Positions 44,463 to 51,306 of a stretch of DNA of 64,000 nucleotides are shown piece after piece (positions within the stretch are counted from its first letter, which is position 1; each line of letters begins with the position of its first letter). Both the position numbers and the translations under genes were made by a program. This DNA is from Malus domestica. Taxonomy: Eukaryota; Streptophyta; Magnoliopsida; Rosales; Rosaceae. The stretch spans positions 7,461,001 to 7,525,000 of the forward strand of contig NC_091673.1 of NCBI RefSeq assembly GCF_042453785.1, written 5' to 3'. Below the pieces are notes generated by a model. It saw only the letters and a program-made list of their open reading frames with translations. It was not told the DNA's origin and ran no database searches.

Positions 44463-45134
44463 ATGTCTTTTCGATCCATGATACACTTAATCTCACCAAA
44501 CAAAGGACAACATTCATGTCTATTTTTATTCTAACTTATCCTATCTAATCGAACCTGCCAAAGAAAGCCTACATATACCCAGTTAAGGGCGAATCCCCAC
44601 TATCATTCGGAGAATAAATTCATAATATACCATAATCTAAAGAAGTGTCAATTACATTTTACAACCTCAAAAATCTTGGTAGAATTGTAACCTCATTCAA
44701 TATATTTAAAACATTTTAATCTCATACATTACATATTATTGTATTTCAATATCACACAATTGTTACTTAATTCATTAAATTTGAAGATGATGTATGAGGT
44801 TGCAATTGCACTTAAACATAATTTATCCACTTGCCATAGTATTGGCATCTCAATAAACAACTAAACCCCTAAAAATGAGGACCTTGATCAAGTAACATGG
44901 GTCTGACTTCGGTGTTACGTAGCATTGAATGTTACGACTATTCATAAGCTCAACTTATTATCCTAGGTCAGAACAAGTTAATAGGATCCCCTTTTTAATG
45001 TTCTAGTATTATAATACTCTTTAAAGATCATCTCCGTAAATAAATTAAAACTAAAGTTGTTTAGTTAATCAATTTTGTCCATATATTTTTGTATAGTACC
45101 ATGACTAAACAACCTTAGTTTTAATTGTTTTTTG
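44463..45134. other. AT-rich intergenic DNA
   Basis: No gene, RNA or clear repeat border is seen between the Harbinger-type element and the LTR element. Confidence 0.6.
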
Positions 45135-45512
45135 TTTGTACCATACTTAGGGCCTCCATATTTAGATCTCGTATAAATACTCGGGGAACTCAAATGTAAT
45201 TATGTAATAAATGAAGGGGTAAATATATAATAAGTGAGGAGCCCTTATTCTATAAAAGGACTCCTCATTCTCCTCATTAAGGAGGCCAAGTTTTAGGCCA
45301 TGGGAAGAGAGCACACAGAAAATAGGCTAGAAAGCACACTGCCTCTAGCATTCTTGTATATTCACCATTCAGAGTGAAACAATATCAACATCAGTGTGGA
45401 CGTAGCCCAAACATTGGGGTGAACCACGATACATCTTGTGTTCTTTACTTTCTTGCAAATTCACGGTCGGATTTACGTTGTTCCAAGACCCATCCGGTTT
45501 TGTGCATCAATA
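45135..45512 (+). repeat. 5' LTR of the gene-capturing element
   Basis: 378 bp with a TATA-like CTATAAAAGG near 45251. The last bases read CAATA where the 3' LTR has CAACA. Confidence 0.88.
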
Positions 45513-45639
45513 TTTGGCGCCGTCTGTGGGAAACGATACTAAAAGTTGTGTTGGTTCTCTTTCATTTTTTCACCTCTATCGTGAATATGCAAAATCACAA
45601 AAAAAAGCCATCAACCAGTCCCATCTCTCTTTCCTCTCA

Positions 45640-46312
45640 CTGACCCACGTTGAAGTCACCTCTTTGCTTTCCTTCTCGTCCGTTCTCTCTGCTCTCTCTG
45701 CAACAATGAGAACACCACCTCAGGCAAACCAAAAAACCCATCTCCAAAAATACCCAAATTCTCTGAAAGTTTCAAACTTTATGCTTCTTGGGAGCTTTTG
45801 AGATTGTTTCAGAAATACTAAATCGTTGTTCTTTTTAAAAGCTTTGACCCACCTGCAAATCTCTGATCCTTCGCAGTTCTGACGCCGGAATTCGATCTAC
45901 ATGTAAAAATATTGATCGGCACCGTTTTGCCATTTAATGCGCGAGAAATTAAGCTTCTGGCTCGCAGCCGTTACTTAGTGAGTGAAACTGAGTCGCCATG
46001 GCGGGGAGGACGGACTCGGAGTTTATCCGGGTGCCGTACAAGAACTTGAAGAGAGAGGTGAAAGTGGAAATGATGGTGACGGATGAGCCTCATCATCGTA
46101 TCAACCTCAATTCGTCTACGTCTTCCTCCTTTAGGGTTCCAAATGGGGGCGACGGCGGCCTCGGCCTTTCGCCGTCGGGTCAACTCAGACACAAACACAA
46201 TACTTTTTTAACGCTTATTCTGAGCTGTACGGTCGCTGCCTGCGTATAATTCGGTTGGGCGTTGCAGCTTTCGCTTTTAACTCCCTATATACAGACGCTT
46301 GGAACAGGACAT
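45640..46312 (+). pseudogene. Captured 5' part of a sucrose transporter gene (SUC3/SUT2 type), with nonsense codon
   Basis: From ATG 45998 the frame reads MAGRTDSEFIRVPYKNLKRE, then TLILSCTVAAC and, past an in-frame TAA at 46247-46249, FGWALQLSLLTPYIQTLG. That is the N-terminus and first membrane helix of the SUC3/SUT2 sucrose-H+ symporter. The TAA sits where the family has Gln (VQFGW), a C to T change. The similarity stops at about 46310, before the second helix. The 350 bp upstream of the ATG are C/T-rich and probably derive from the same gene's 5' UTR. The intact gene is not in this window. It is not functional as a transporter. Confidence 0.85.
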
Positions 46313-46689
46313 GCCCCTGTGGAAAGAGAATGCATGAGGGATTATCTTGCAAAGCCTCTGTGCCTTTGTGTGGTTCAACTTGTGATAAGATGTTCAGTTG
46401 TGGCTACCATAGGCGCCCAGAGAGGTGTCATCGTGGGGAGTGCATTGAGACTTGCAGAATAGTTGTCATTAAGTATTGCTGGTGCGGGAGCTTAAAAAAG
46501 GAGGTTCATTGCCATCAAGATTTAGCATGCGAAAGGAAGTGCCAGAGACTAAGGGACTGTAGGTGGCATGCTTGTAAGCGCAGGTGTTGTGATGGGGACT
46601 GCCCACCGTGCTTAGAGATTTGTGGAAGAAAGCTGCGATGTAGGAACCGCAAGTGCCCATCTCCATGCCATAGGAGAAAAACATGCTGA
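46309..46689 (+). pseudogene. Captured NFXL2-type NF-X1 zinc-finger fragment fused to the transporter piece
   Basis: In a different frame from the transporter piece, starting at about 46309, the sequence encodes roughly 120 residues dense in Cys and His: CPCGKRMHEGLSC, CHRGECIETC, CERKCQRLRDCRWHACKRRC, DGDCPPCLEICGRKLRC. These are NF-X1-type zinc fingers matching the central part of NFXL2, a nuclear regulator linked to the clock and stress in Arabidopsis. The frame ends at TGA 46687-46689 just after CPSPCHRRKTC, short of the next expected CHRGPC finger. The junction is at GGAACAGGACATGCC, where the two gene fragments meet without a spacer. An alternative upstream in-frame start (46255, TTG) would be needed; there is no natural ATG fused to it, so translation is doubtful. 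Confidence 0.85.
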
Positions 46690-47204
46690 TGACTCAACGC
46701 CAGATGCTTCATGCCCAGAATCTCAGGTTTCCCAATCCTGAATGCCTTCCCAAACAACAAAAGCCGTCCGTCGACAAGTCGTGGTGCTTCTGCTGCCGTT
46801 CAAACCACTTGAAGCTACTTTTACTTTTATCTACCACCAAAGAAGATGCCCACACTTTCATCATGCATGTTCCCATTTTCTGAGAAAGAAAAAGTAGAAA
46901 ACAAAAATAGAAAGCCAATGAGCTGGAAATGCAAGTGCGGGAGATCATTACAAGCATCCAATGCAGTCTCCTCAGATTCCATGGGCATCGACCATCAGTA
47001 AAGCGAAAGCAGAAAGCAAAAATAGAAAAAGGAAGGAAAATAATGAAAAAGGAAAAGATGTCTGGAGATGGAGAAAAGCCAAGGAAGTGGAAAGCATGGC
47101 ACACCCATTGATGAATATTTTATTAAGTTGTCTTCTGCAAACTGGAGCAATTATTGTATAGTTATACTGATATGTAAAGAAGATAGCATAACAAAAAAAA
47201 AAAG
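46690..47204 (+). other. Unassigned interior of the gene-capturing element
   Basis: The sequence following the zinc-finger fragment has Lys-rich short frames (for example around 46930-47110) and purine-rich codon-like text that may come from further captured exon DNA or UTR. I do not recognise the source. Confidence 0.4.
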
Positions 47205-47420
47205 TACATCTAGTACTCCAAAATTATTCGGCAGCCTGCCGTTATTATCACCCACTAGGTGATCAAAAGTACGTCTAGTACTCCAAAATTATTCGGCAGC
47301 CTGCCGCTATTATCACCAACCAGGTGATCAAAAGTACGTCCAGTACTCCAAAATTATTCGGCACCCTGCCGTTATTATTACCAACCAGGTGATCAAAAGT
47401 ATGTCCAGTACTCTAAAATT
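47205..47420. repeat. Tandem repeat, about 64 bp unit, 3+ copies
   Basis: Units contain AAAGTAC(A/G)TC(T/C)AGTACTCC, AAATTATTCGGCAGCCTGCC and ACCAGGTGATC, starting near 47203, 47267, 47331 and partly 47395. CGGCAGCCTGCCG is itself palindromic. Confidence 0.85.
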
Positions 47421-47725
47421 ATACATGAGCATCACTCATGTCAATCATTCATAAACATTCATGAGCATCACTTATGTCAATCATACATAAACATTCATGA
47501 CCATCATTCATGTCAACATTCATAAGCATCACTCATGTCAACAATCATGAGCATCACTCATGTCAATCAACATAAACATTCATGAGCATCACTTATGTCA
47601 ATCAGCTTCGAAAGCTTCATTTACAGAGCTCTAGCTTCGAGAGCTCCAGCTTCAAAAGCTTCATTTACAAAATCTCTAGCTTCAAAGCTTCACTTGCAAA
47701 GCTTCACCTGCAAAGCTTCAGTGCA
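47420..47725. repeat. Short tandem repeats ATGAGCATCACTCATGTCAA and CTTCGAAAGCTTCA types
   Basis: ATGAGCATCACTCATGTCAA-like units recur five or more times from 47425 to 47605. GCTTCACTTGCAAA/GCTTCGAAAG-type units recur from 47606 to 47720. Confidence 0.75.
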
Positions 47726-47738
47726 GGGTATACAAAGA

Positions 47739-49740
47739 TGATGCGAAAATTAACTTAACACACAAATTTAACCCTCTTTTGACAATTGTAGTATAAGTAT
47801 AAGTAGGGATCGTTCTGGACCGAGGATTAGGAGGGCTTGCTAATAACCTCTAAACTAACTAAAAAACATAAAACTAAATTTAAAAACACTTAACAAGACT
47901 CACAAGACTCAAAGCAAACTTAAAATACTCAAAACAGCTTAAAACAACCAAATAAACTTAAACTAGACACTAGGAATGACTTTGGACGAAAATTGATTTT
48001 TACTTGAATCAAAACATTTAAAAACACAAATTAAAATAGATTTGAAACACTTTGAAACAAGAAACTAAAAGGGGGGTTTTGATTTGGAGGAAGTTGTAAC
48101 AAACAAACAAGTATGAAAAATTAGACAGATTGTAAAATAAAATTGAGAAATAAGATGATGGATGGGATACTTAGAGGCTTTTTCTCCACACATGACATGT
48201 ATGCAAATAACTTGATTTCCAGTTACTACTTCATTAAATTATGAATGACAATGCTCCAAATTAGCCGTGACATCACTAGTTAACTCTCATATTTTCCTTG
48301 TTTTATTGGATTGGATGACATCATTCGACAACCCAAAACATTCTTCAAAAGTTCCCTACATGACATCATAATAGAGATACAATCAAAGATCAATACGTTT
48401 AATGAAAATCATAAGCATTGACAAAGCACTTGCAACTATGACATCATGTCGCTTATGCTAGAAATTGAACTTAACGCGATCGTTTATAAGCGACCTTCAC
48501 TACATGTGAATATAAGTTTGTAACGATTATGTGAATCTTCCTTATATTCTAGCAACGGATTTATGCATGCCAATTAAGTGTCGACCCTTAATTAACAAAT
48601 ACAAATAAGTTATCAATCAAATAGTTAAGCCAATTGCATTCACGATTCAAGAGTTCATAACTTAAATTTATCAAATTATATTGCACACATAATCATGGCT
48701 TTGAGATCACCCCTAGCCAAGAGGGGCTTAGCCACTCATATTTACAACAAAACGAAAGGAAATGAATTTAAACATTAGAAACAAAAGAAAGAAAACACCT
48801 AAACGCTCCAACGATCCAAGTTGGACAACAAGCATGTCCAAGCACTTTCCTTCCCTTCCTTTGCTACGGCACAAGATGTTGGTGAATGTTTGAAGGTGTA
48901 TGGAGGAATGGATGTGAAAATGAATGGATGTGTTTGGATGAAGGTTGTGTTGAAAATGGGAGTGAATGATCTAACAAAGTATGAACTAAATTTATGTTAC
49001 ACACACTTCCTTTTATAGAGGAAGTGCATGGCAATGGAGGGGAACATGGAATGGTGTAGCAATTGAGTGCAATGATGCATGAAATCTGAAATGATGGAGG
49101 GAACAATGAATGGTGTAGCAATTGAGTGCAATGATTCAATGTAATGATGCATGAAATTTGAAATGATGGAGGGAACAAGGAATGGTGTAGAAATTGAGTG
49201 CAATGAGTGGTGTTTGAAATGATTCAAAGGTGAAAGTGAAGTGATGATGCAAAGCATGGGGTAAAATGGAGTGGTGTTGCAGCTAGGGAACATGAATGAT
49301 TGTGCACATGGTAGATAAAGGAAATGAAGGTGGAATGATGCAATAAATGAGTCAATGGAGGGAACATGGATGATGATGCACGGCATAGGAATCCAAAGGG
49401 AGTGCAATGGTGGTGCACGTCAATGATGGAAAGGTGAATGGTGGAGTGACACCTTTTTGTGGCTGAGCTCTTTGTCCTTTTTACATTAATTCTTCTTTCT
49501 CTTTAACACATTCCTAGCCTCTTTAGTCTTCAATTTCGTCCATCCACCTTGCTCCATGCATGTGTTATTCATTCCAAGCCCAAAACTGCTCCAAAATGCA
49601 CCAAAATGCATCTTATTGCTTCATAAGGCCTATGGACCTACAAACACACGAAAATAGCTTAAAATACATAATTAACTAAGAAATAACAACATAAATGCAT
49701 GAGAACAAGCTAACTCGGTTGCATAAATATGCTCCTATCA
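47739..49740 (-). mobile_element. Solo LTR, 2,002 bp, nested, 5 bp TSD
   Basis: The plus strand begins TGATGCGAAAATT and ends GCTCCTATCA. AAAGA is duplicated exactly at 47734-47738 and 49741-49745. Read on the minus strand it starts TGATAGGAGCATATTTATGC and ends TTTTCGCATCA, a long LTR of the Ty3/gypsy type by size. No internal domain remains. It contains a local tandem repeat at about 49030-49200 (AATGGTGTAGCAATTGAGTG units). Insertion postdates the host element. Confidence 0.85.
49030..49205. repeat. Tandem repeat inside the 2 kb solo LTR
   Basis: AATGATGCATGAAAT(C/T)TGAA, ATGATGGAGGGAACAA and GGTGTAGCAATTGAGTG units are repeated about three times, period about 55-65 bp. Confidence 0.65.
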
Positions 49741-49889
49741 AAAGACCGCCCCCAAACAACCGCCATTTCGACCCATACATGGATTCAATTTGAAGTCTCC
49801 AGCCAACAGACTCTATTGACTGAAGACTTAGGGGACTACACTATGTACCATATATTGGGCTTCCACAACTGGGCCTCATGAAAATACTT

Positions 49890-50390
49890 GGGGGACTTAG
49901 CCCATCATTTATGTATTGAAGGGTGAACCCTTATTCTATAAAAGGGACTCCTTCACTTTCATTAGAGAGCACCCATTATTCACGTATTGAGGAGCGAACC
50001 CTTATTTTATAAAAGGGACTCTCTCACATTCATTAGAGAGCATCGTCGCCAGTTGAGCAACCGCCTTGCCGCGAGCATCACTCCTAACCCATCATTTATG
50101 TATTGAGGAGCGAGCCCTTATTTTATAAAAGGAACTCCCTCACCATCATTAGAGAGCATCATCGCCTGCTGAGCAACTGCCTCGCCGCGAGCATCCACTC
50201 TAACCCATCATTTATGTATTGAGGAGCGAGCCCTTATTTTATAAAAAGGACTCCCTCACCTTTATTAGAGAGCATCGCCGCCTGCTGAGCAACCGCCTCG
50301 CCGCGAGCATCAACTCTAGCCCATCATTTATGTATTGAGTAGCGAGCCCTTATTCTATAAAAATGACTCCCTCACCTTCAACGCCACAAT
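49890..50390. repeat. About 116 bp tandem repeats carrying a TATA-like box, 4-5 copies
   Basis: Units begin CCCATCATTTATGTATTGA at about 49900, 50089, 50205 and 50321, with a variant start near 49973. Each has CCTTATT(T/C)TATAAAA and usually a TTAGAGAGCATC...CCGCGAGCATC section. The CCTTATTCTATAAAAGGACTCC text also occurs in the element's own LTR promoter region, so this looks like an amplified copy of LTR promoter sequence. Confidence 0.8.
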
Positions 50391-50592
50391 CCAAGCCAAC
50401 CAAGGCAACATAAGCCACAAGTCGAGCAGCCTTGCAACATGTGCTACTTCTAGTTGAGCATCATTTTAGATTGAGCACCGCCTCATATCGAGTATCAGTC
50501 CTAGATGACATCTAGTTACTTCGGCCCACACATGGACTAAATTTCAAGTCTCCAGCCAAAAGACTCTCTTGACTAAAGACTTGGGGGACTAC

Positions 50593-50971
50593 TGTTTGTA
50601 CCATACTTAGGGCATCCGTATTTAGATCTGGTATAAATACTCGGGGGACTCAAATGTAATTATGTAATAAATGAATGGGCAAATATGTAATAAGTGAGGA
50701 ACCCTTATTTTATAAAAGGACTCCTCACTCTCCTCATTAAGGAGGCCAAGTTTTAGGCTATGGGAGAAGAGCACAAAAAAATAGGCTAGAGAGCACACTG
50801 CCTCTAGCCTTCTTGTATATTCACCATTCAGAGTGAAACAATATCAATATCAGTGTGGACGTAGCCCAAACATTGGGGTGAACCACGATACATCTTGTGT
50901 TATTTACTTTCTTGCAGATTCATGGTCGGATTTACATTGTTCCAAGACCCATCCGGTTTTGTGCATCAACA
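50593..50971 (+). repeat. 3' LTR of the gene-capturing element
   Basis: 379 bp, TGTTTGTACC to TGCATCAACA, preceded by the CTTGGGGGACTAC polypurine tract at 50579-50592. Confidence 0.88.
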
Positions 50972-51306
50972 GTTTTTTTTACAGATATATATAGTCTTTA
51001 TAGAGTGATTTTATAATATGAACGATTTTAACCATAATTTAATTAGCCAACGCCAATTTTTTTTTTGTTCGATTTTGTTGGTACAATATCTAATTGAATT
51101 GACTTCAATTTGAATGAACTAATTTAAAAAATCAACCGAACCCCATCTAAACAAACAAAGATCAAATATGTACCATAGTGGTTAACTAGTTCGATCTGGA
51201 TTCTAGCCATTTGCATGCCTTGTTCTAAGATCTATATAGAAAGCCACAAAATGCTTCAAATTAACTATATATACCATCTTGCAACCCAGCGGTATGAAGA
51301 CCTTTT
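50972..51306. other. AT-rich DNA between two LTR elements
   Basis: No gene or repeat border is recognised in this 335 bp. Confidence 0.6.

Follow-up and report, generated by a model that had tools for sequence, protein, structure and literature searches.

Spliced host messages as the probable cargo source of a non-autonomous LTR retrotransposon family in apple

The interior of a long terminal repeat (LTR) retrotransposon in apple (Malus domestica) is a mosaic of pieces from at least four host genes: a bZIP leader, a sucrose transporter, NF-X1-type zinc fingers and an exon of mitochondrial ribosomal protein L47. The element lies in a 64,000-nucleotide stretch, hereafter the window (C13:7461001-7525000 of a 651-Mb assembly in 19 contigs). 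We read it as one member of a non-autonomous LTR family whose copies take up spliced mRNAs through template switching, in many cases several in series, and we put the probability of this reading at roughly 0.85. Because donor introns are missing and the cargo is biased toward the sense of the LTRs, capture would have taken place at the level of mRNA; and because the cargo sits between leader and 3' block, a switch during minus-strand synthesis fits the arrangement.

The donors of the window cargo lie on different chromosomes, and three of their introns are missing from the element. The first-pass annotation of this DNA had proposed the capture of two unrelated genes, a transporter and a zinc-finger gene; capture is borne out, whereas the count of two falls short. 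It had also anticipated two donor loci with introns at the appropriate places, and these were found (C13/C16 for the transporter, C7 for the fingers) on different chromosomes rather than side by side at one locus. The transporter piece has its ATG at 45998 and, as that annotation had supposed, brings its 5' untranslated region (UTR) with it: positions 45864-46294 align with C13:4944220-4944647 at 90.5%, and 45843-46294 with C16:5207622-5208083 at 83.5%. The C13 donor has a 460-bp GT...AG intron between exons 1 and 2 that the element lacks, and donor exon 2 matches sucrose transporter SUC1 in PDB (E 9e-6); there was no PDB match for the transporter N-terminus and no Pfam match for the transporter frame. 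The finger piece falls into three blocks, 95.6, 95.1 and 96.6% identical to the C7 donor, whose splice sites coincide with the inner block edges and two of whose introns are gone; its frame matches FAP1 in PDB (E 7e-13) and zf-NF-X1 in Pfam at 0.01, below the curated cut-off. Neither frame received an ncbifam name, and the subtypes NFXL2 and SUC3, taken over from the earlier annotation and from general knowledge, are presumptive. The donor exon of the L47 piece is MRP-L47 (Pfam 2.2e-22). The bZIP piece derives from C5:11134267-11134387, upstream of an upstream open reading frame (uORF), at a locus that encodes a bZIP protein (Pfam 1.4e-13), which we take to be of the S1 class, together with a 41-residue uORF. 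Several of the donor genes are present on pairs of chromosomes (C13/C16, C9/C17, C3/C11).

The percentages of identity would fit an older capture of the bZIP and transporter pieces than of the fingers and L47, but because coding and non-coding pieces are unequally constrained, we assign no dates to this order. Part of the 5' UTR found in both the element and the C16 copy is absent from the C13 transporter copy (L009 vs. L011, near 45864), and the transporter capture may therefore predate a deletion in the C13 donor. The 41-residue frame at the bZIP donor (MTPVLSETLLSEC..., at L018:1664-1789) resembles the conserved sucrose-control uORF of S1 bZIPs.

Most copies of the family that were sampled appear to have a mosaic of their own. 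A search with LTR and leader found at least 39 other loci matching at 90-96% among the 40 of 3750 first-look candidates that were scored (the window included). For comparison of cargo we used 52 elements with LTR and leader, namely the window (L001) and 51 other loci; the LTR search supplied 28 of the non-window elements, queries with further portions of the element supplied the others, and L008, L028 and L058, which repeat the window, were dropped. The elements have leader and 3' block in common but differ for the most part in the intervening 1.0-1.5 kb: across the post-leader stretch that was compared (1.0-1.8 kb, among these 52 elements only), the longest run that an element shares with no other is 383-1,500 bp (median 1,165, or 1,234 for the 28 from the LTR search), and it reaches at least 500 bp in 50 of the 52.

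Frames of this stretch match host protein families mainly in the orientation of the LTRs. At E<=1e-5, frames in the sense of the element matched 22 Pfam models and antisense frames five (150 segments each), or 19 against five once EF-hand and PPR models are merged; for this comparison each element contributed its three leading segments, of which 150 out of 156 were used in either orientation, with L086 and L087 excluded from both and short segments at the leader additionally removed from the sense list. None of the 22 sense models in these segments is a retroelement domain, and they include 14-3-3, GH9 and tubulin, whereas the antisense models are three of retroelements (gag_pre-integrs, Pol_BBD, RVT_1) and two that are not (PH, NAD-GH). 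A first pass at E<=0.01, over 154 of 303 sense segments picked among the longest, had given 48 family entries over four groups, and antisense frames yielded 12 families at the same threshold. Another 23 loci were collected through the 3' block, two of them overlapping loci of the first set (L055/L019, L056/L079); their 85 segments matched 31 Pfam families at E<=0.01, with no gag or pol among the 25 of the 31 that were listed. One locus (L072) translates as 280 residues of 4-hydroxyphenylpyruvate dioxygenase.

Spliced host pieces were found in five of the seven elements searched back to donors (the window, L010, L012, L059 and L060). Four of the seven (L059, L060, L061, L064) were taken from the LTR ranking and not for shared cargo, L062 and L063 being skipped. 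L059 holds pieces from three loci, one with an intron missing; L060 holds four exon blocks of a single gene; and in L061 one block, a probable host piece, matches the genome a second time on C16. The end of the L060 stretch (C11:28253357-28253808) is a different, many-copy repeat (74-94%).

Three relatives have pieces of the window mosaic beside other cargo. On C15, L010 has the window's bZIP|transporter join, followed by a chloroplast Do-like 1 protease piece (two exon blocks, donor on C17, PDB E 3.9e-37) and by a piece of a PSF3-like gene (three exon blocks, donor on C1; matches in Pfam, 0.00016, and PDB, 0.012, both weak), with introns missing; the stretch between the protease and PSF3 pieces matches other loci. 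On C10, L012 has the bZIP piece, its last 64 bases 100% identical to C5, after which come pieces of no fewer than four further loci, one of them lacking an intron, in the order C11 (97%), a weaker block (87%), two C5 exon blocks, C14 (97%) and C11 (94%). The L012 block edges meet at 64/64, 187/187 and 540/539, and 407-420 has no assigned donor. On C11, L006 has the finger|L47 join as in the window beside other 5' cargo. The older joins are thus shared, and from the three comparisons we conclude that one end of the mosaic retains old cargo, next to which new pieces appear. The earlier prediction that several copies of the same transporter/finger chimera exist fails: relatives share parts of the cargo beside other genes. 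The bZIP capture in L012 extends to the first codons of the uORF.

A mechanism consistent with these observations would run as follows. The family, present in high copy, would keep only the parts needed in cis, namely the LTRs, the primer site with the leader, and a 3' block that is rich in repeats and includes the plus-strand primer. Its RNA would be packaged with spliced host mRNAs in the particles of another element, which would thus act as helper. During minus-strand synthesis the 3' block would be copied first, after which synthesis would switch, where a few bases agree, to a host mRNA, possibly to further mRNAs, and would then rejoin the element RNA at the leader or within older cargo; this order of jumps is our inference. 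Finished copies would insert with a sense-oriented mosaic, and repeated cycles would exchange some of the cargo while its ends persist. One short-match join can be read directly: at the transporter/finger junction, the donors GGAATAGGGCATGC and GGAAGAGGACATGC (element, GGAACAGGACATGC) are alike at 12 of 14 positions (GGAA-N-AGG-N-CATGC). Read by eye, the bZIP/transporter and finger/L47 joins show overlaps of 2-3 bases.

An alternative source of intron-free pieces is retrocopying by other machinery (e.g., long interspersed nuclear elements), with processed copies inserted serially into a non-coding LTR element. That the pieces are spliced, and that some A-rich runs occur near the 3' block, would agree with such a history. 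However, the joins that were read have neither poly(A) nor duplication, the donor pieces abutting or overlapping by a few bases, and in the elements aligned the cargo is confined between leader and 3' block; we therefore consider serial retrocopying improbable.

Gene fragments can also be carried by DNA transposons such as Pack-MULEs and Helitrons, and genomic gene pieces might have been copied in at the DNA level and later spread with the element. Pack-MULEs contain both exons and introns (PMC4717578, in the part available), whereas the window element, L010, L012, L059 and L060 lack introns where exons meet; the cargo is biased to LTR sense, and the element is bounded by LTRs. DNA-level capture is accordingly quite unlikely. 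We think it very unlikely, too, that selection maintains the chimera as a host gene for a functional protein. The finger part is open over about 127 codons. Yet the transporter and finger pieces join without a spacer and in different frames, as the first-pass annotation had stated, and the transporter frame meets a stop upstream of the join, so that no fusion protein is encoded; moreover, the element bears a 2-kb insertion and its relatives carry unrelated cargo. A young neutral copy would look no different. Finally, an assembly artefact between donor loci, for which the occurrence of the transporter/finger join at one locus might speak, is hardly credible because the cargo diverges from its donors by about 3-10%, where an artefact should be nearly identical, and because two of its joins, bZIP|transporter and finger|L47, were found again on other chromosomes.

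Several points nonetheless weigh against capture of host mRNAs by template switching in this family. The short matches come from reading just three joins, with no statistics applied, and in a genome search with the chimera the transporter/finger join came up nowhere but here. The window element has a weak purine tract and a likewise weak, possible target duplication. No autonomous partner turned up, although no search aimed at one was made. Cargo was mostly judged by translation and Pfam, seven of the 52 elements having been searched against the genome, and two of these (L010 and L012) were picked because they share cargo with the window. L061 gave no intron evidence; in L064, which has a near copy 15 kb away, the cargo region is filled by another repeat, and a genome search of that region found no host gene. 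Nor is cargo strictly private, because part of the PSF3 piece of L010 recurs in L080 and another L061 block recurs at several loci.

How does the family compare with known elements? Large retrotransposon derivatives (LARDs) have a conserved long non-coding internal region, and the family was rejected as a LARD because its internal 1.0-1.5 kb is largely private among the 52; it was likewise rejected as a terminal-repeat retrotransposon in miniature (TRIM), for which a complete relative, L030 (3,499 bp with 371-bp LTRs), is too large. The pattern fits LTR-mediated retroposition of host mRNA: donor introns are missing in the five of seven elements named above, and the cargo is in sense, between the leader and the 3' end. 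Capture of host genes by LTR elements is known, and the comparisons that follow draw on the available portions of the reports cited. Bs1 of maize, with pieces of three host genes (PMC13317346), likewise joins several unrelated host gene pieces in an LTR element; here, in contrast, capture extends across many sampled copies with differing cargo, and no frame runs through the chimera of the window. GmaRetroS15 and the other gene-carrying TRIMs of Medicago and soybean (30 elements in seven subfamilies; PMC4717578) are similarly non-autonomous, with exons lacking introns and three host genes in one element, but nearly all elements of that survey have two or more copies, whereas ours are about 3.5 kb (L030) or longer, have LTRs of about 380 bp and seldom share cargo within the sample. 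Retroduplicated NLR genes of pepper also lie as spliced copies within LTR elements, about 72% of which lack gag or pol (PMC5664825), and belong mainly to one gene class, whereas the present family carries many kinds of gene, several joined per element. The long form of Veju and BARE-2 are chimeras by switching between RNAs in one particle (PMC13317346), as we propose here, but instead of host mRNAs their described partners are a second retroelement or a sequence of unknown origin. Elements of Retand/Tat (PMC11963269) resemble ours in having tandem repeats before the 3' LTR and some non-autonomous members; here, with no gag or pol, the lineage cannot be placed. Two further candidates were set aside: the TGTT/AACA subfamilies of Rosaceae (PMC5659011) have non-canonical ends and LTRs of 152-266 bp, against TG...CA and about 380 bp here, and the available portion of the report on high-copy pear LTR families (PMC6409787) makes no mention of capture, non-autonomous elements or gene fragments. 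Counts of gene capture exist for rice and sorghum (PMC3726574, in part). In the limited literature searched we found no description of a family whose copies mostly differ in their host cargo, and what looks new here is a different host mosaic in most sampled copies of one family.

A stronger version of template-switched capture, to which we give a little short of even odds, is that the family has no fixed internal sequence at all, and that switching to host mRNA is a regular part of its replication, perhaps because any RNA of suitable length will do as a spacer between leader and 3' block. If so, the genome would hold a large, sense-oriented archive of ancient spliced messages in new combinations, mostly as unique copies. 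A family in which private host mosaics prevail among the sampled copies makes the mechanism measurable, since many joins could reveal anything from the rules of template choice and the sites of switching to the order of capture and the mRNAs packaged. Such a family would also continually supply chimeric transcription units and false gene models, and perhaps small interfering RNAs against the parent genes.

The frame that holds this cargo is that of a non-autonomous LTR element (Table 1). The well-defined LTR pair of the earlier annotation was recovered in direct orientation, each repeat about 380 bp, starting with TG and ending with CA, and differing at 22 of 379 aligned sites (Kimura two-parameter distance, K2P, 0.061). 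At a rate of 1.3e-8 per site and year taken from work on pepper (PMC5664825, in part), the element would be about 2.3 million years old, and for a tree it may be more. A primer site and a polypurine tract had also been claimed: the former stands as a candidate, identified from sequence, and ARAGORN found no tRNA in the window for comparison; the latter amounts to a short, weak G-rich stretch, CTTGGGGGACTAC, 5' of the 3' LTR. GTTTTT flanks the element on both sides, but within a T run, and the 7-base flanks of L030 (GGGTGTG/AGGTGTG) are alike at 6/7, the LTR ends there not being exactly set. The annotated lack of gag and pol holds: no retroelement Pfam domain was found in the window sense segments scanned, six further window frames (81-136 residues) had no Pfam match, and the other sense frames between the LTRs, outside the cargo and the Pfam scan, reach at most 66 residues. 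An autonomous LTR retrotransposon was rejected on this account.

Table 1. Features of the window element (positions in the window).
Feature	Position	Strand	Remarks
Possible target site duplication, 5' copy, GTTTTT	45127-45132	.	Other copy 50972-50977; low complexity, weak
5' LTR	45133-45512	+	Starts TG; terminal CATCAATA, 3' LTR counterpart CATCAACA
Candidate primer binding site TGGCGCCGTCTGTGGGAA	45515-45532	+	Sequence only
Leader	45533-45725	+	To ~45604 common to many copies, remainder to a subset
Captured 5' leader of presumed S1-type bZIP	45726-45849	+	45726-45845 aligned, end approximate; 91.0%
Captured sucrose transporter mRNA (5' UTR, exon 1, first bases of exon 2)	45850-46304	+	5' end approximate
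Captured NF-X1-type finger mRNA, three exon blocks	46301-46674	+	Donor C7:30201028-30201614
Captured mitochondrial ribosomal protein L47 exon	46672-46754	+	Donor C14:26883451-26883533, 96.4%
Cargo without assigned donor, common to L006	46755-46834	+	Alignment to L006
Family 3' block, first part	46835-47738	+	Start approximate; 65-bp tandem repeat 47200-47422
Nested insertion, TG...CA ends, AAAGA on both sides	47739-49740	-	Probably a solo LTR from a different element
Family 3' block, second part	49741-50592	+	With 116-bp repeats
3' LTR	50593-50971	+	Paired with 5' LTR

The element measures 5.8 kb including the nested insertion. In aligned relatives position 47738 is continuous with 49741, and the 2,002-bp insertion, probably the solo LTR of another element, arrived later than its host element. 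The 116-bp repeats (49898-50380) resemble the TATA-like stretch of the LTR at 79-94% over 32-58 bp and look as if parts of the promoter had been multiplied upstream of the 3' LTR.

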